DNA from: Nocardioides cynanchi
Lineage (GTDB): Bacteria; Actinomycetota; Actinomycetes; Propionibacteriales; Nocardioidaceae
Direction: 5' to 3'
Assembly (NCBI RefSeq): GCF_008761635.1
Contig: NZ_CP044344.1
Span: forward strand, 682,001-746,000
DNA: 64,000 nt
The position numbers and the translations under genes are program-made. The notes beneath the pieces are model-generated. The model saw nothing but the letters and a program-made list of their open reading frames with translations. It was not told where the DNA came from and made no database searches. Below, one piece after another: positions 7,127 through 17,816 of the stretch; positions within the stretch are counted from its first letter, which is position 1; each line of letters begins with the position of its first letter.

Positions 7127-7765
7127 GTGGCCACGATCGTCGTGTTCGGAGGCACCGGTTACACCGGTGGGAACATCGCCCGAGAGGCCACCTCACGGGG
7201 CCATCACGTGATTTCCGTCAGCCGGTCGAAGCCCGCAGAGCCCATCGAGGGCGTCACCTACGAGACCGGCGCTGTCGAGGCACTGGCTCCCAGGTTGATC
7301 CCCGGTGCAGATGTCGTTGTCGCCACGCTCTCGCCACGGGGCGACACGGCCGGGCACCTGGTCGACATCTACCGCGAGCTGGTACGGCTGTGCGCCGCAG
7401 CCGGTGCCAGGTACCTCCAGATCGGCGGGTTCAGCTCGCTGCGACCGGCGCCGGGTGCACCGCGGTTCGTCGAGGGCGAGATTCCCGAGCAGTTCCGCGA
7501 CGAGGCACTCGAGGGTGAAGCCACGCGCGCCATGTTGGTCGACGAGGCCACGAGCGAGCTCGACTGGCTGTTCATCAGCCCTCCCGGTTCCTATGGCGCG
7601 TGGGCGGCCGGCGAGCGGACCGGTGAGTATCGGATCGGAGACGACGTCGCGTTGTTCGACGACGCCGGTGGCTCCGCCATCTCCGGAGCCGACTTCGCAC
7701 TGGCAGTGCTGGACGAGATCGACACCCCCACCCATCACCGCACCCACATCGGCATAGCGAACTGA
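7127..7765 (+). CDS. NAD(P)-binding Rossmann protein (atypical SDR, NmrA/epimerase-like)
   Basis: A 212-residue atypical short-chain dehydrogenase. The N-terminus has the NAD(P) motif TIVVFGGTGYTGGNIAREA, followed by an SRS stretch after the second strand that fits NADP binding. Later strands include ADVVVATLSP, ARYLQIGGFSSL and LDWLFISPPGSYG. The protein lacks the YxxxK pair of classical SDRs, as do many flavin-reductase and NmrA-like members, so binding or redox sensing is as likely as catalysis. The GTG start at 7127 follows a good ribosome site, GAAGGAG, at about 8 nt. This distinguishes it from the leaderless genes around it. It stands alone, and its substrate is unknown. Confidence 0.75.
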   Translation: MATIVVFGGTGYTGGNIAREATSRGHHVISVSRSKPAEPIEGVTYETGAVEALAPRLIPGADVVVATLSPRGDTAGHLVDIYRELVRLCAAAGARYLQIGGFSSLRPAPGAPRFVEGEIPEQFRDEALEGEATRAMLVDEATSELDWLFISPPGSYGAWAAGERTGEYRIGDDVALFDDAGGSAISGADFALAVLDEIDTPTHHRTHIGIAN

Positions 7766-8080
7766 ACCGTTCCTTCGCCGGCTCCTACGAGTCACGAGAT
7801 GCCCGTCGCTGACCCAGGGCTCTGGCGGCCTGTCTCGAGTCAGCAACTCAGCACGAAGGGCACCCCACCCGCGACCGCTAGGTCTGGGTGGGGCGCGGGC
7901 CGCACGACAAGCCGGGGGGACGGGATCATCTTGCGACCATCTACGACCATACGTCGATCCATCCCGAATTGACCCGTTCGCTTCATGGTCGTGGCAGATG
8001 GCCCGTTCCTGCGTGGAGAACCGCCGGGATGCGCTGCTCGAAGGGAGCGCGACAGGCGTTCCCGTCACGCCAGCAATGAG
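7766..8080. other. Gap between convergent genes
   Basis: 315 bp with no supported gene; it holds one terminator-like hairpin (7863-7893). Confidence 0.6.
7863..7893 (+). terminator. Hairpin between convergent genes
   Basis: CCCCACCC (7863-7870) pairs with GGGTGGGG (7886-7893) across a 15-nt loop, about 100 bp after the stop at 7765. There is no T-run. Confidence 0.35.
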
Positions 8081-10039
8081 TCAGTGTCGCGCCAGTGGGA
8101 TCGCGTAGTCCAGCTTCGTCGCCACCGCGGTGTCGAGCTCGGCGGTGCCGTTCCCGAGGTCCTTCCAGCCGGTCGGCAGGCTGGTCGGGCGATAGCCGGC
8201 GGGCCAGGTGGCGATCACCTTGAGCGTCTCGGGGACGACGGTGTCCTGCGGGTCGACGGCCAGGCCGTAGGTGAGCAGACCGTCGGTGCCCACCTCGGCT
8301 GCACGGGGCACCGTGTAGCTCATGTCGAGGGTCGAGGACTGCCCGGAGTTCAGCATCATCGTGGTGTGGAAGTAGTGCCGGTTGTGCACGCCGGCGACGC
8401 TCGGGAAGCGGAACCGGGGCTGGGCCGGCTGACCGTCCAGGCTGACACCGGTCGACCGTGACTTGTTGGGCAGGAACACGCCGAGCACGGTCTGGAGGTA
8501 TCGGGTCGTGTAGCCGAACTTGGGGTCCGGCACCGGGAGGTCGTACGGCGGCGCCTGGTTGTCGACGACCACCTGCAGGTGGACCTTCGCGCTGCCGTCG
8601 GCGTTCAGCTTCACGTGCGAGGTGATCGAGCGGTGCTGCCAGTAGTCGGTCTTGCTGCCGTTGAGGTTCTGGGTGAAGACCCCGATGTAGTCGTGCGGCG
8701 TCGGGCTGAGGTCGCCGGACAGGCCCACCTTCGCGAACCGGTGCTGCACCTGGGCGTTGCGGAAGTAGGTGAAGAAGTGGCGCCCGTCGGCGGAGTCCAC
8801 GAGCGCCGTGAGCTTGTCCGACATGTTGCCGGCCTCGAAGAACTTCTGCCGGAAGGCCGGCACCAGCTCGGCGTTGAGCTGGTGTCGCACCTGGATCGAC
8901 GCGAAGTCGCCGTAGCTGCCGGCCAGGGTCTGCACGAGGTTGGCGCCGGTGATCGTCCCGAAGTGCGGCAGGTCCACCGGCCCGGTGATCGTGAAGATGT
9001 TCGCGAGCGCCTGGAGGTCGACGCCGATGACGCCGTCGATGTGCTGCCGCGGGAACACGGTGGAGTAGCCGCGCAGCAGCTCCTCGCCGGAGACCGACCA
9101 CCAGGGTGAGAACGTCGCGTTCACGACGCGGGTCGGTCCGGGCGGATGGAAGATGTTGCCCGGCACCGGCTTCCACGTCTGGAAGTAGCCGTGACCGTTG
9201 ATGTCGTCGACGTTGAGGGTGCCGCCGAACGTCGCCTGCCCGTGGTCGAAGTGGATCGTGGTGAACGACAGCGCTCCGCCACCGGAGTAGCGCAGCTCGG
9301 CCGGGTTCAGCATCGCGAGGAGGTAGGTGCGAGGACCGTCGGCCCCGACGATCGACGGGAGTGACTGGACCAGCGGGCCGGCCTTGTCGTAGCTCTGCTT
9401 CACCGGCTCGAGGTAGCCCAGGGCGGTGTTCTTGGCGTTCGCGGCCGCCCGGCCGACCACCGGGGTGGTGCCGTGCACCTGATCGAGGTCAGCGAGCGCC
9501 CGGTCGAGGTGCTCGCCGATGGTCGCGGTGTCGCTCACGACCTGGTCGAGGACCGCGAGGTCGATGCTCTGGCCGCGGACCAGGGTCGAGCTGCCGCCCG
9601 AGACCATCGGGTAGAGCTGGACACCCGTCTCGGCGACCGACGTGGTCTCGGAGAGGGCGTCGATCAGGTGGCGGGCGTCGTGGACGGCGCCGCCCGCGAC
9701 CGGGACCACCGACCACACGTCGCCGCCGAACCCGTTGGCGCTCGCGTCGGCCTTGTCGACGTGCGCACGGGCACTGCGTACGTCGGCCCGGGCCGTCGGC
9801 AGGTCCTTGGCCGACAGGGCGGCCTTGGCCGCGGTCAGGTCCGCCTGCGCCAGCTTGGCCTCGCTCCGTGCGGTCAGCAGTGGCCGGGCCAGCACCGCCA
9901 GCACCACGCCGACGACCAGCAGGAGGAGCACGACCAGGGCGATGATCCGCCCGCGGGAGAGCCGGCGGCGGCTCCGGCGCGCGGGAGTGCGCGGGGTCGC
10001 CTCGGGTGCCTCGGCACCCGAGGTCGGTGTCGCGCTCAC
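8081..10039 (-). CDS. DUF4012 domain protein, membrane-anchored
   Basis: A 652-residue protein with a cytosolic Arg-rich N-terminus, one transmembrane helix (GRIIALVVLLLLVVGVVLAVLA, about residues 30-51) and a large extracytoplasmic part. An Ala-rich helical stretch (about 58-100) precedes the DUF4012 core, recognised from YLLAMLNPAELRYSGGGALS and from the later D-D-x-N-G-H-G-Y segment and the HIDGVIGVDLQALANIF stretch. Proteins of this family often sit in exopolysaccharide clusters of Gram-positive bacteria and have a role in polymer export or attachment that is unproven. No polysaccharide genes flank it here. The start is GTG at 10039. It is divergent from thrS and ends against the NAD(P)-binding gene. 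Confidence 0.85.
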   Translation of the reverse strand: MSATPTSGAEAPEATPRTPARRSRRRLSRGRIIALVVLLLLVVGVVLAVLARPLLTARSEAKLAQADLTAAKAALSAKDLPTARADVRSARAHVDKADASANGFGGDVWSVVPVAGGAVHDARHLIDALSETTSVAETGVQLYPMVSGGSSTLVRGQSIDLAVLDQVVSDTATIGEHLDRALADLDQVHGTTPVVGRAAANAKNTALGYLEPVKQSYDKAGPLVQSLPSIVGADGPRTYLLAMLNPAELRYSGGGALSFTTIHFDHGQATFGGTLNVDDINGHGYFQTWKPVPGNIFHPPGPTRVVNATFSPWWSVSGEELLRGYSTVFPRQHIDGVIGVDLQALANIFTITGPVDLPHFGTITGANLVQTLAGSYGDFASIQVRHQLNAELVPAFRQKFFEAGNMSDKLTALVDSADGRHFFTYFRNAQVQHRFAKVGLSGDLSPTPHDYIGVFTQNLNGSKTDYWQHRSITSHVKLNADGSAKVHLQVVVDNQAPPYDLPVPDPKFGYTTRYLQTVLGVFLPNKSRSTGVSLDGQPAQPRFRFPSVAGVHNRHYFHTTMMLNSGQSSTLDMSYTVPRAAEVGTDGLLTYGLAVDPQDTVVPETLKVIATWPAGYRPTSLPTGWKDLGNGTAELDTAVATKLDYAIPLARH

Positions 10040-14074: not shown

Positions 14075-14704
14075 TCAGCCGAGCCGACCGCGAGCCTCCT
14101 CGAAGAACGCGTGGACGGCCTCCCGGTCGACCAGGTCGGAGATCAGCCGGGCTGCGCCGAAGGGCCGGTCCCAGAAGTCGTCGGCAGCGGGCACCGTCCA
14201 GGGCCCCACGTAGGCGTAGGGCGCCGGGATCGTGCTGTCGCCCGGGGAGACTCCGTAGTTGACCTCGCCGAGGCTGATGCCGACGTCGAAGTGCTCCGGC
14301 CACAGGACCGGCTCCTGTGACGGGTCGAGCAGCCGGAGGGCGTCGTTCCCGATCGACCAGGCCCGGGTCAGCGTCGCGACGGAGTCGTCGTCGACCTGCA
14401 ACGTCTCGTCGACCCCCACCCCGGACCCGTCGCCGTACACGTGGTCGAGCGTGGTCGCGACCAGCCCCAGCGCCGCCGCGAGGTCACGCGGCGTCGACCC
14501 GTCGATCCGCGCGACGGCGTCCCCGCGCTCGACCCGCGAGCCGACCAGGCTGACCTGCGGCTCCGCCCGCGAGGTGGCCAGGCCACCGGGGACGACCCGC
14601 AGGCGGACGGTGTCGACCGCGGCGTGCTGCGGGCCGGCGAGCACCAGCTCCGCCACGCCGTGCAGGGACCGGCGGGTTTCCACGAGGGTCGGATCGGGCT
14701 CCAT
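14075..14704 (-). CDS. Conserved hypothetical protein, divergent from the Rieske-ThDP gene
   Basis: A 209-residue soluble protein with no recognised domain. It has an N-terminal helix (TLVETRRSLHGVAELVL), a strand-rich centre (VDTVRLRVVPG, PQVSLVGSRVERG) and a distinctive C-terminal third with LWPEHFDVGISLGEVNYGVS and AYVGPWTVP. The last segment gives the look of proteins annotated only as hypothetical in other actinobacteria. There is no signal peptide or membrane helix. The ATG at 14704 is chosen because a ribosome site (AGGAG) precedes it by about 6 nt inside the palindromic region; an earlier in-frame start would place that region inside the gene. It shares a symmetric control region with the fusion enzyme, so co-regulation is likely. 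The function is unknown. Confidence 0.7.
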   Translation of the reverse strand: MEPDPTLVETRRSLHGVAELVLAGPQHAAVDTVRLRVVPGGLATSRAEPQVSLVGSRVERGDAVARIDGSTPRDLAAALGLVATTLDHVYGDGSGVGVDETLQVDDDSVATLTRAWSIGNDALRLLDPSQEPVLWPEHFDVGISLGEVNYGVSPGDSTIPAPYAYVGPWTVPAADDFWDRPFGAARLISDLVDREAVHAFFEEARGRLG

Positions 14705-14713
14705 CGGGGCTCC

Positions 14714-14777
14714 TGTAACGCTCGTCGACTTGCCGAGACTGACGACCATCAGTCTCGCGCACCCAGGAGGCGTTACA
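14714..14777. promoter_or_regulatory. Nested palindromic divergent control region
   Basis: Two perfect inverted repeats share one centre (14745.5). The inner one is CGAGACTGA (14734-14742) and TCAGTCTCG (14749-14757) with a 6-nt spacer. The outer one is TGTAACGC (14714-14721) and GCGTTACA (14770-14777). Each outer arm abuts or overlaps the ribosome site of the adjacent gene: AGGAGG at 14765-14770 for the plus gene, and AGGAG for the minus gene. A dimeric repressor or activator acting on both genes is the natural reading. Confidence 0.6.
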
Positions 14778-14778
14778 C

Positions 14779-16704
14779 ATGGAGAGCTGGCACCGGATCG
14801 ACACCGACGAGGTTCCCGACGAGGGCCGGGTGACGAGCCTCGTCGTCGACGGTCGCGCGGTCGCCCTGACCCGCTGTCGTGGGGCGGTGGGTGCGCTGGA
14901 GAACCACTGCCCGCACCAGGGCGGACCGGTGGGCGAGGGCTCGATCGAGAACGGCTGGCTGCGCTGCCCCTGGCACGGCTACGACTACGACCCGCTCACG
15001 GGGATCCCGCCGGAGGGCTTCTCCGACGCGGTGACGGCGTACGCCGTCGAGGAGCGCGAGGACGGGGTCTTCGTGCGGCTTCCAGACCACGAGGCACCGG
15101 TGCGGACCGTGGCGGACGTCATGGTGGAGACACTGGTCGCGCACGGCATCGACACGGTCTTCGGCATGGTCGGGCACTCCAACCTGGGCCTCGCCGAAGC
15201 CATGCGGAAGGCCGAGGCGCGGGGCGAGCTCACCTACGTCGGGATCCGGCACGAGGGCGCAGCCGCCTTCGCCGCCAGCGCCTACGGCAAGCTCACCGGC
15301 CGTCCGGCCGCCTGCTTCGCGATCGCCGGGCCGGGCTCGACCAACCTCCTGACCGGTCTGTACGACGCCAAGCTGGACGGCTCGCCGGTCCTCGCTCTGT
15401 CCGGCCAGGTCCCCACCAGCGTCCGTGGGCGGGGCGCCTTCCAGGACCTCGACCTCGAAGCGGTCTTCCGTGACGTGTCGGTGTGGAACGCCACCGTCAG
15501 CGGCGGGAGCGACCACGCCGAGCTGGCCGCGCTCGCGGTCAAGCACGCCTGTGACGGTCGGGGGGTGGCTCATCTGGTCTTCCCCGACGAGGTCCAGGTG
15601 CAGGTTAGCGACGCGGCGGCCATGGTCCCGGGTGGTCGCTCCACCAACCGGAGGATCCGCCCGGACGTCGAAGCCCTCGACGCGGCCGCTGCGGCGATCC
15701 GTGCTGCGAAGCGACCTGTGGTCGTGGCCGGCCACGGTGCTCGTGGCGCCGAGGCGGAGCTGATCGCCTTCGCCGAGGAGCTGAACGCGCCGGTGCTGAC
15801 CACCTTCAAGGCCAAGGGCCTCGTCCCCGACACCCATCCCCTGGGAGCCGGAGTGCTGGGCCGCAGCGGGACGCCCGTGGCCAGCTGGCTGATGAACGAG
15901 TCCGACCTGCTCGTGGTCGTCGGGGCGTCGTTCTCCAACCACACCGGCATCGCGTCGTACAAGACGATCGTGCAGGTCGATGACGAGCCGGCCGCCATCG
16001 GCCGCTTCCACCCCGTCACCTTCCCGGTCCTGGCCGACGCGGCGCTGGCTCTCGACGCGCTGCGGGAGTCCGCGGTCGACGGCGAGCCGGACGACCAGCG
16101 AGCCGACGTGGCAGCACGCTGGGAGCTCTGGCGCGCGGAGAAGCAGCGCCGGGCGGTCGACGACCGGGGCCACGGGGTCTCGGCGGCGGCCGTGTTCGCC
16201 GCACTCTCGGACGCGCTGCCCGCGAACGCCGTCGTGACCGTCGACGTGGGCAACCATGCCTACTCGCTCGGTCGCTACCTCGAGTCGAAGGGCCAGCCGG
16301 TCCTGATGTCGGGCTACCTCGGCTCGATCGGCTTCGGCTATCCGGCTGCCCTCGGCGCCTGGGCAGCCGACCGGTCCCGGCCGATCGTCGCGGTCACCGG
16401 GGACGGCGGGTTCGGACAGTACGCCGCGGAGCTCACCACGGCGGTCAAGTACGGCATCCCGGTCAAGCACGTCCTCCTCGACAACCATGCACTGGGGAAG
16501 ATCGCCAAGGAGCAGGTGGCCGGTGACTTCCCGGTCTGGCACACCTCGCTCCACAACCCCGACTGGGCGGCGTACGCCGAGCTGTGCGGAGCCACCGGCA
16601 TCACGGTCACGGCCGCCGAGCAGCTTCCCGATGCCATGCGCAGGCTGTTCGCCGCCGAGGGGCCTACGCTGCTCCACGTCGAGCAGGACGCGGCACTGGT
16701 GTGA
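14779..16704 (+). CDS. Rieske [2Fe-2S] domain fused to ThDP-dependent pyruvate oxidase/acetolactate synthase-like enzyme
   Basis: A 641-residue fusion. Residues 1-105 form a Rieske domain with both ligand pairs: C44-x-H46 (NHCPHQGGPVGEG) and C63-x2-H66 (LRCPWHGYDYD), 16 residues apart. Residues 108-641 form a full ThDP enzyme. The Pyr domain has the catalytic Glu159 in GIRHEGAAAFAASAYGKLTG and the GPGSTNLLTGLYDA segment. A middle domain (about 290-430) follows, and the PP domain carries the ThDP/Mg motif GDGGFGQYAAEL from residue 541 with Asn569. By homology it should decarboxylate a 2-oxo acid such as pyruvate, and the Rieske centre could pass electrons to or from the active site; this is inference. 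The ATG has an AGGAGG site 8 nt upstream. A sigma/anti-sigma pair follows after 52 bp. Confidence 0.85.
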   Translation: MESWHRIDTDEVPDEGRVTSLVVDGRAVALTRCRGAVGALENHCPHQGGPVGEGSIENGWLRCPWHGYDYDPLTGIPPEGFSDAVTAYAVEEREDGVFVRLPDHEAPVRTVADVMVETLVAHGIDTVFGMVGHSNLGLAEAMRKAEARGELTYVGIRHEGAAAFAASAYGKLTGRPAACFAIAGPGSTNLLTGLYDAKLDGSPVLALSGQVPTSVRGRGAFQDLDLEAVFRDVSVWNATVSGGSDHAELAALAVKHACDGRGVAHLVFPDEVQVQVSDAAAMVPGGRSTNRRIRPDVEALDAAAAAIRAAKRPVVVAGHGARGAEAELIAFAEELNAPVLTTFKAKGLVPDTHPLGAGVLGRSGTPVASWLMNESDLLVVVGASFSNHTGIASYKTIVQVDDEPAAIGRFHPVTFPVLADAALALDALRESAVDGEPDDQRADVAARWELWRAEKQRRAVDDRGHGVSAAAVFAALSDALPANAVVTVDVGNHAYSLGRYLESKGQPVLMSGYLGSIGFGYPAALGAWAADRSRPIVAVTGDGGFGQYAAELTTAVKYGIPVKHVLLDNHALGKIAKEQVAGDFPVWHTSLHNPDWAAYAELCGATGITVTAAEQLPDAMRRLFAAEGPTLLHVEQDAALV

Positions 16705-16756
16705 AGGCACGCGGGGCGCCGCCCACCACGCCGCCCGAAGGCGGGGGAGCACCGCG

Positions 16757-17428
16757 GTGGCCGAGTCCGGAACGACGCCCTCGTCCGAGGCCGACCTCGT
16801 CTCCGGTCTGCGGGCGCGCGACGAGGCGGCCTTCGCGACACTGGTCGACCAGTGGGGGCCGACGATGCAGCGCGCGGCTCGCGGTCATGTCTCGACCGAT
16901 GCCGTGGCCGAGGAGGTCGTGCAGGACACCTGGGTGGCCGTGCTCCGGGGCATCGACCGGTTCGAGGGCAGGTCGTCCCTGCGGACCTGGGTCTTCCGGA
17001 TCCTGGCCAACACCGCCAAGACCCGCGGGATCCGGGAACGGCGGACGATCCCGATGAGCAGTCTGGCCGGAAGCCTCGATGCGGGCCCGACCGTAGGCGC
17101 CGACCGGTTCCGCGGGGACGGTGACGAGCACCCCGGCGGCTGGAAGCGCTTCCCGGCCGACTGGCCGGTCGGGGTGACCGGCGAGCACCGGGTGCTGGGT
17201 GAGGAGGTCGGTGGCGTGGTCTCGTCGGCTCTGGCCGAGCTGCCCGCCCGGCAGCGCAGCGTGGTGACCTTGCGCGACCTGGACGGTCTCGACGCGGACG
17301 AGGTGTGCGCGCTGCTCGGGCTCAGCGCGGGGAACCAGCGGGTTCTGCTCCACCGCGGGCGGGCCCTGGTCCGGTCGCGTCTGGAGGACCACTTCGGCGA
17401 CGCCGCGCGCTGGGGAGCCACCCCGTGA
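16757..17428 (+). CDS. ECF-family RNA polymerase sigma factor
   Basis: A 223-residue sigma-70 family protein with only regions 2 and 4. Region 2 is DEAAFATLVDQWGPTMQRAA through AEEVVQDTWVAVLRGIDRFE and the -10 recognition stretch LRTWVFRILANTAKTR. After a linker of about 55 residues rich in Gly/Asp, region 4 begins at SSALAELPARQRSVVTLRDL and holds the helix-turn-helix VCALLGLSAGNQRVLLHRGR. The GTG at 16757 follows GGGGGAG by 8 nt; longer in-frame readings extend into the preceding gene. The stop overlaps the anti-sigma start. It lies 52 bp downstream of the Rieske-ThDP gene in the same direction, so it may be co-transcribed and control an oxidative or metabolic stress regulon. Confidence 0.9.
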   Translation: MAESGTTPSSEADLVSGLRARDEAAFATLVDQWGPTMQRAARGHVSTDAVAEEVVQDTWVAVLRGIDRFEGRSSLRTWVFRILANTAKTRGIRERRTIPMSSLAGSLDAGPTVGADRFRGDGDEHPGGWKRFPADWPVGVTGEHRVLGEEVGGVVSSALAELPARQRSVVTLRDLDGLDADEVCALLGLSAGNQRVLLHRGRALVRSRLEDHFGDAARWGATP

Positions 17429-17670
17429 GCGAGCTCACCTGTGAGCAGCTGGTCGAGCTGGTCACCGACTACCTCGAGGAAGCACTGACCCCCGAGGCGC
17501 GCCGACGGTTCGAGCGCCACACGGCACTGTGCCCGGGCTGCGACGTCTACCTCGACCAGATCCGGATCACGATCGCCGAGCTCGGTCGGCTCACTCCCGA
17601 GCGCGTGGCACCGGACGCCCGAGACCGGCTGCTCGCGGCGTTCCGGGGCTGGGCCGCCGAAACGCGCTAG
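17425..17670 (+). CDS. Zinc-binding anti-sigma factor
   Basis: An 81-residue cytosolic protein with the ZAS motif H-x3-C-x2-C (ERHTALCPGCDVYL). The preceding helix LTCEQLVELVTDYLEEAL is typical of the domain that grips ECF sigma region 2. It overlaps the sigma gene by 4 bp (GTGA), the usual coupling for such pairs. There is no transmembrane helix, so it is a soluble sensor of the RsrA/ChrR N-terminal type rather than a membrane anti-sigma. A redox signal through the zinc cysteines is plausible. It ends with a basic helix and no further sensor domain. Confidence 0.88.
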   Translation: MSELTCEQLVELVTDYLEEALTPEARRRFERHTALCPGCDVYLDQIRITIAELGRLTPERVAPDARDRLLAAFRGWAAETR

Positions 17671-17684
17671 CGATCCGCCGGCGG

Positions 17685-17816
17685 CTACTTCTTCTTGTGG
17701 TGCATCTGCTCGGAGATCGACTCGGGATGGTCCTTGGCGCGCTTGTCGGCGCGCTTCTCCTTGATCGACTTGGAGGTCTTCTTGGTCATGCCCTGCCGCG
17801 GCGACTTGTCGCTCAT
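17685..17816 (-). CDS. Small Lys-rich protein
   Basis: 43 residues, starting MSDKSPRQGM and ending ISEQMHHKKK, with about a third Lys or Arg and no hydrophobic segment. The composition and the KKTSKSIKEKRADKRAK stretch match small conserved actinobacterial proteins with no known function. The ATG at 17816 has a TGGAG ribosome site about 7 nt upstream. It is convergent with the anti-sigma gene (14 bp between stops). It might bind nucleic acid by charge, but this is only a guess. Confidence 0.6.
   Translation of the reverse strand: MSDKSPRQGMTKKTSKSIKEKRADKRAKDHPESISEQMHHKKK

Follow-up and report, generated by a model that had tools for sequence, protein, structure and literature searches.

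The window analysed here, a 64,000-nucleotide stretch of the 4.0-Mb genome of Nocardioides cynanchi (C1:682,001-746,000), contains a gene cluster whose best overall explanation, one that we consider moderately probable, is a self-regulated redox-enzyme module. Its central gene, RT (14779-16704, + strand), encodes a 641-aa protein in which a Rieske [2Fe-2S] domain precedes a ThDP enzyme of the PoxB/PQO fold (aa 108-641). HYP (14075-14704, - strand), a conserved protein of 209 aa, is divergent from RT. Downstream of RT on the same strand are SIG (16757-17428, + strand), an ECF sigma factor with sigma2 and sigma4 regions, and ASF (17425-17670, + strand), a soluble zinc-type anti-sigma factor of 81 aa. 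The SIG and ASF genes share 4 nt; the RT/SIG intergenic gap is 52 nt, and judging from this gap read-through from RT into SIG-ASF could provide positive feedback. Clear homologues of all four genes are found elsewhere (the mean column identity of RT is 70% over 51 aligned sequences), which excludes a chance origin. This neighbour set agrees with the initial annotation. The description as a four-gene module needs extension: the set does recur, but elsewhere the module is larger and includes three further genes, RGS, FMNR and CPA2.

We confirmed the fusion originally described: RT has a complete Rieske domain joined to a ThDP enzyme with all three of its domains. The Pfam Rieske profile matches aa 8-75 of RT with 48.0 bits (cut-off 20.3), both Cys-His ligand pairs are present (C44-x-H46 ... 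C63-x2-H66), which together place RT among the Rieske [2Fe-2S] proteins, and TPP_N, TPP_M and TPP_C each score above their Pfam cut-offs. The catalytic Glu159 and the GDG...N motif (GDG 541-543, N569) are present as claimed. In an alignment of 51 RT sequences, a few of which were entered without the first ~15 residues, the 50 other members, including haloarchaeal plasmid copies, share 53-83% identity with RT. Residues C44, H46, C63, H66, E159, F221-Q222, D542-G543-G544, K574 and E578 are invariant throughout this alignment, while G541 and N569 are variable in its haloarchaeal copies.

RT resembles PoxB (3eya, 3ey9) and the PQO of C. glutamicum (9ev6) in its three-domain ThDP fold, catalytic Glu and GDG, and has in common with them the Phe-Gln at positions 221-222; the three TPP profiles, the Glu and the GDG are all features of PoxB-type enzymes. 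It differs from both in the added N-terminal Rieske domain and in failing the family cut-offs: the top NCBIfam model is a pyruvate oxidase, and the scores remain below the equivalog cut-offs for pyruvate oxidases (PRK08611, 382.5 vs 742 bits; TIGR02720, 280.4 vs 637.85 bits). The structure model of RT has a mean pLDDT of 88.8, falling to ~52-55 around residues 211-220 and 571-590. Its nearest fold is PoxB 3eya (Z 41.8, rmsd 2.6, 513 aligned residues), followed by HKA synthase (Z 40.9), PQO 9ev6 (40.4) and AHAS (39.3); with this predicted structure, oxidase and synthase cannot be told apart by Z score. Both the alignment and the structure comparison indicate that RT lacks the C-terminal region of PoxB (the last ~40 residues). 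The penultimate residue of RT (640 of 641) corresponds to PoxB 531, and the PoxB chain of 3ey9 has 572 aa. In PoxB, this region binds membranes and lipid. RT is a pyruvate-oxidase-fold ThDP enzyme, for which we infer the substrate, the acceptor and FAD.

The enzymology originally proposed for RT, a 2-oxo-acid oxidation with electrons passing through the Rieske centre, is a sound inference. RT would oxidatively decarboxylate a 2-oxo acid, and the N-terminal Rieske centre would act as the electron outlet, replacing the C-terminal lipid-binding region of PoxB. If this is true, the Rieske centre built into a ThDP enzyme would give 2-oxo-acid oxidases a new route of electron disposal. RT could instead be a non-oxidative lyase or synthase of the acetolactate-synthase, HKA-synthase or oxalyl-CoA-decarboxylase type, with a Rieske domain that is structural or redox-sensing and supplies no catalytic electrons. 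The structures of HKA synthase, AHAS, HACL and OXC lie within ~1-4 Z of PoxB, the NCBIfam acetolactate-synthase models match strongly (under their cut-offs), and the invariant Lys574 aligns with a Phe in PoxB. This lysine, which lies in the low-confidence stretch 571-590 of the model, may hint at an anionic substrate. We nevertheless regard a non-oxidative RT as fairly unlikely, given that PoxB is the best match in both sequence and structure and a pyruvate oxidase the top family model, that the four cluster ligands are invariant in all 51 members from bacteria and archaea, and that the coupled partner RGS carries a Rieske domain of its own together with an FMN domain and a C-x5-C-x4-C motif.

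The region between HYP and RT contains two copies of TGTAACGC-N13-GAGACT, placed face to face. The ECF-type promoter-like element facing RT occupies 14714-14740 (+ strand), with TGTAACGC (14714-14721) as its -35-like and GAGACT (14735-14740) as its -10-like part; the second copy, facing HYP, occupies 14751-14777 (- strand), and its TGTAAC sits between the Shine-Dalgarno-like AGGAGG of RT and the RT start codon. The symmetry noted in the initial annotation is real, in that the inverted repeats CGAGACTGA/TCAGTCTCG and TGTAACGC/GCGTTACA are exact, and a promoter pair is the best reading of it. These two mirror-image promoters seem to serve the module's own control pair, SIG and ASF, and would raise HYP and RT at once.

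The pattern TGTAACGYN{16,17}ACT has only two matches in the 4.0-Mb genome, both of them here (reversed control, 0), and this search found no copy upstream of SIG itself. In other genomes an equivalent TGTAACGC(C)-N13/14-GNACT precedes RT, HYP, RGS, FMNR or CPA2. To count the motif at RT loci, we searched for TGTAAC[GA] followed by ACT after 16-18 nt and took the expectation from first-order Markov sequences. The 31 loci whose genomes have a SIG orthologue gave 39 matches (0.25 expected), the 10 whose genomes lack it gave one (0.15 expected) and the 45 loci outside the SIG screen also one (1.1 expected). Face-to-face pairs were found in 24 of the 31, 1 of the 10 and 0 of the 45 loci, respectively. 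We interpret the facing pair of TGTAACGC-N13/14-GNACT promoters as a candidate regulon signature of the sigma/anti-sigma pair.

Searches of 27 whole genomes with the pattern gave 28 matches, in 15 genomes, and the reversed control gave 13. The module accounts for 20 of the 28, and 8 are located elsewhere. A wider regulon made up of the distant sites was rejected, since 8 sites are not above the background of 13 control matches in the same genomes. Two of the 8 lie upstream of MFS transporters in two Kribbella genomes (L125, L135), where a second copy of SIG adjoins the transporter that bears the promoter motif. Two others are in the genome of L030, one before a DUF417/RclC-like gene and one before a SnoaL-like gene.

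SIG contains sigma-70 regions 2 and 4, with no match to sigma3, as in an ECF factor, and scores 68.4 bits against TIGR02937 (cut-off 42.9). Orthologues (E <= 1e-30) were sought in 41 genomes, namely that of the window and a non-random 40 of the 85 locus genomes; they were found in 30 of these 40 RT-bearing genomes and hence in 31 of 41, with the caveat that some of the SIG-negative genomes are bins and may be incomplete. Under a looser definition of the motif (a GTAAC[GA] core that precedes the called start of RT, HYP, RGS, FMNR or CPA2 by 20-200 nt), it is present in 29 of 31 SIG-positive and 1 of 10 SIG-negative genomes (Fisher p 1.5e-6, kinship ignored). The divergence of SIG is correlated with that of RT (Mantel r 0.79, p 0.001; 23 loci, the unrelated sigma factor of L009 left out). 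The link between sigma factor and module, which forms the regulatory half of the earlier model, is on these comparative sequence data well supported, and SIG, once freed, would be expected to read the TGTAACGC-N13/14-GNACT promoters given their conservation and co-occurrence with it. SIG is not obligatory, however: the nearest relatives at the same site, L009 and L010, keep HYP-RT without SIG-ASF and the motif, and have CPA2 after RT instead.

An alternative interpretation is that a dimeric regulator encoded elsewhere uses the TGTAACGC...GCGTTACA inverted repeat as its operator, with SIG-ASF as hitch-hikers. The repeat is perfect, its face-to-face geometry would fit a dimer as well, and in L037 it is present in a genome in which no SIG orthologue was found. 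We consider this quite improbable, because motif presence tracks SIG, because single, one-directional copies with near-fixed spacing to ACT also occur upstream of CPA2, FMNR and RGS, and because the length from TGTAAC to TGTAAC differs among loci (59-80 nt), unlike in an operator. The single copies and the variable spacing led us to disfavour this reading of the palindrome and to retain that of a promoter pair.

A few genomes depart from this pattern or lie outside the 41-genome table. SIG is present in the genomes of L039 and L044, and the fetched loci contain no motif. In both L039 and L089, the SIG match is spread over three reading frames between FMNR and CPA2, i.e. it is broken. L089 (3280-9911) is part of a mycobacterial plasmid and L039 a very similar contig; both carry RT, FMNR and CPA2 and seem to have lost the sigma factor, and the annotation of L089 also lists DUF4331 and a TetR regulator. 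Two same-genus genomes were considered separately from the table. G065 has SIG, a degenerate motif copy between HYP and a broken RT and, on another contig, a full motif before FMNR-SIG-ASF in a row. In G136, SIG was not found and the motif is absent from the 14 kb examined. The SIG/ASF pair occurs in Kribbella, Lentzea, Amycolatopsis, Pseudonocardia and others.

ASF matches Pfam zf-HC2 with 36.8 bits (cut-off 22.2). The window protein has the motif C6-x25-H32-x3-C36-x2-C39, and thus the H-x3-C-x2-C with an upstream Cys expected of RsrA-type zinc anti-sigma factors. The arrangement C-x25-H-x3-C-x2-C is conserved in 21 of 22 ASF proteins, L040 being the exception, and we take it to be the spacing of RsrA. 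SigR-RsrA is a thiol-stress ECF sigma factor with a zinc anti-sigma. SIG-ASF resembles it in the succession of an ECF sigma factor and a short soluble anti-sigma with this motif, and differs from it in that ASF scores 21.8 bits against the RsrA equivalog model, under the cut-off of 62.5; the promoters differ as well, that of SigR being of the GGAAT type. An excerpt of PMC7406223 gives ~72% of soluble class I anti-sigmas as having a zinc-binding motif, which it reads as consistent with redox sensing, and also mentions H-x3-C-x2-C in anti-sigmas where the motif may be structural. A redox-sensing role of ASF is plausible from its sequence, and SIG/ASF is possibly an oxidant-sensing control pair. 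In the proposed mechanism, ASF, with its RsrA-like Cys/His spacing, would hold SIG until thiol oxidation of the anti-sigma sets it free.

Relatives of RT are encoded in 273 stretches of the genome contigs scanned. In the best 80 of these, both the Rieske and the ThDP parts are matched, at 57-83% identity; judged by title, these 80 are mostly from Actinomycetes and Acidimicrobiia, with two from Acidobacteriota, one from Calditrichia and one from a Bacteroidetes bin. RT also occurs on plasmids by tblastn, in Mycobacteroides (67.6%) and in four haloarchaeal cases (52-55%). It is rare in its own genus (3 of 118 genomes at E <= 1e-150), and one of the three is a truncated chimera. This copy (L144, G065:C3:115000-132000, about 7400-9370) is cut after ~residue 275 and continues with sequence of other origin; the HYP of the same locus matches along most of its sequence.

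Neighbouring genes were surveyed in 85 loci, some of them short, by tblastn (E <= 1e-10, coverage of at least half). HYP or a distant form of it was found in 36, SIG in 25 (two frame-broken), ASF in 22, FMNR in 21, CPA2 in 22 and RGS in 26. The initial annotation had made its proposal depend on conservation of the neighbours; HYP, SIG and ASF are indeed conserved, and linked by the promoter motif. RGS combines a Rieske domain with a Glu_synthase (FMN) domain, and retains C-x5-C-x4-C, presumably the cysteines of a 3Fe-4S cluster, and a QGAK...VR stretch that we take to be the 2-oxoglutarate site of glutamate synthase. RGS and RT are same-strand neighbours in 21 pairs, and our gene calls give a 4-nt overlap between them in 15 of these; that a Rieske-GltS partner recurs and is in many cases translationally coupled to RT suggests a complete redox chain. 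Behind the promoter in L037 there is a short piece that matches the C-terminus of RGS, which suggests that RGS was lost there from an earlier RGS-RT pair. FMNR is an FMN-reductase-like flavoprotein (PF03358), and CPA2 is an antiporter with matches, under cut-off, to the 2a37 and KefB/C models. In the genome of the window, FMNR is at 2.83 Mb (77%) and has no motif, CPA2 gave no match with the single query tried and no Rieske RGS was found, so that the regulon here may comprise only HYP-RT(-SIG-ASF). The same genome does hold a GltS-like + PoxB-like pair (L002/L097, C1:1,595,767 to past 1,598,991). It is paired like RGS-RT and is likely a paralogous version of it, but neither protein has a Rieske match, and RT shares 38% identity with the PoxB-like enzyme.

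The set formed by RT with its coupled partner RGS, and by FMNR and the Kef-like antiporter CPA2 with the promoter motif in common, would suggest that the module answers oxidant or electrophile stress. A more specific proposal, compatible with the redox-module explanation, is defence against electrophiles or reactive chlorine, with CPA2 and FMNR acting like KefC and KefF and RT detoxifying a reactive carbonyl; we see this as possible, on the doubtful side. KefFC is a flavoprotein-regulated K+ efflux system, and FMNR-CPA2 resembles it in having a flavoprotein close to a CPA2 antiporter, the likeness of FMNR to KefF being one of neighbourhood; the two CPA2 proteins scanned differ from KefFC in being ~400 aa long, with the exchanger domain alone. 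The proposal draws on the family matches of CPA2 and FMNR and on the DUF417 gene behind the motif in L030, which scores 73.9 bits against the RclC model (cut-off 275). This RclC-like case is, however, the sole one, in a genome with 5 real vs 3 control motif matches, and for three haloarchaeal neighbour flavoproteins the dihydrolipoyl-dehydrogenase or MerA models score above RclA. An identity with RclA was accordingly rejected for the three flavoproteins scanned.

RT and RGS might also be the two members of a Rieske-linked chain, not described so far, in which dicarboxylic 2-oxo acids are oxidised. In it, RGS would interconvert glutamate and 2-oxoglutarate, RT would oxidatively decarboxylate 2-oxoglutarate or a similar anionic 2-oxo acid (Lys574), the Rieske centres of both would feed a common carrier, the antiporter would adjust the counter-ion of glutamate by cation/proton exchange, and control in actinomycetes would be by a thiol-sensing sigma factor. 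We regard this chain as quite improbable.

The four haloarchaeal megaplasmids with RT (L090-L093) have transporters and pyridine-nucleotide disulfide oxidoreductases around it, and two of them (L092, L093) carry the Rieske-GltS partner in the fetched stretch. In L045, L046, L049, L061 and L069, RT has other neighbours, common to these loci (clusters c33, c34, c35), and SIG and HYP are absent from the locus; three of these five loci are labelled Sva0996 or Acidimicrobiales. The fetched records annotate RT as 'thiamine pyrophosphate-binding protein' and RGS as 'glutamate synthase-related protein'. In the open-access literature searched, we found no paper on a Rieske-ThDP fusion. An excerpt of PMC8103513 has no mention of Rieske, antiporter, pyruvate or TGTAAC, and an excerpt of a desiccation paper mentions pyruvate oxidase and FMN-binding glutamate synthase, separately.

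HYP adjoins RT in many actinomycete loci, and the two diverge in parallel (Mantel r 0.80, 30 loci). Its longest ORF would begin at 14749, inside the promoter region; we prefer the start at 14704, which fits an alignment with 34 homologues. W135, H138, D140 and S153-P-G-D156 are invariant in the 35 members. HYP has no Pfam match up to E 1, and its single NCBIfam match is far under cut-off. DUF5996 was rejected as its family on one weak match among 35 members (L051, E 0.005, 16.4 vs 25 bits) and none for the window protein, and DUF7210 gave three weak matches, the best with E 0.0031; an open-access literature search on DUF5996 returned no paper. The structure model is confident (pLDDT 97.5), and Foldseek gave no match to it at E <= 0.001. 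With VIA-align, the top Z of 7.0, for the C-terminal half on type III secretion chaperones, is within the uninformative range of the method.

The module was originally said to interrupt a conserved thrS-HIT-pgsA-pdxS block. A search of 26 same-genus genomes yielded 25 loci for this site, 2 with the module and 23 without it. In 7 of the 23 module-free loci, an IMPase gene 3' of HIT is followed directly by pgsA, which upholds the claim. The distance from HIT to pgsA is <=1.5 kb in the 13 of the 23 for which it was resolved. HYP-RT is at the same genomic place in L009, L010 and G065, so that the insertion recurs within the family. Between ASF and pgsA, the window also contains SMALL (17685-17816, - strand), a lysine-rich conserved ORF of 43 aa, matches to which are found near HIT in 8 of the 25 same-genus loci.
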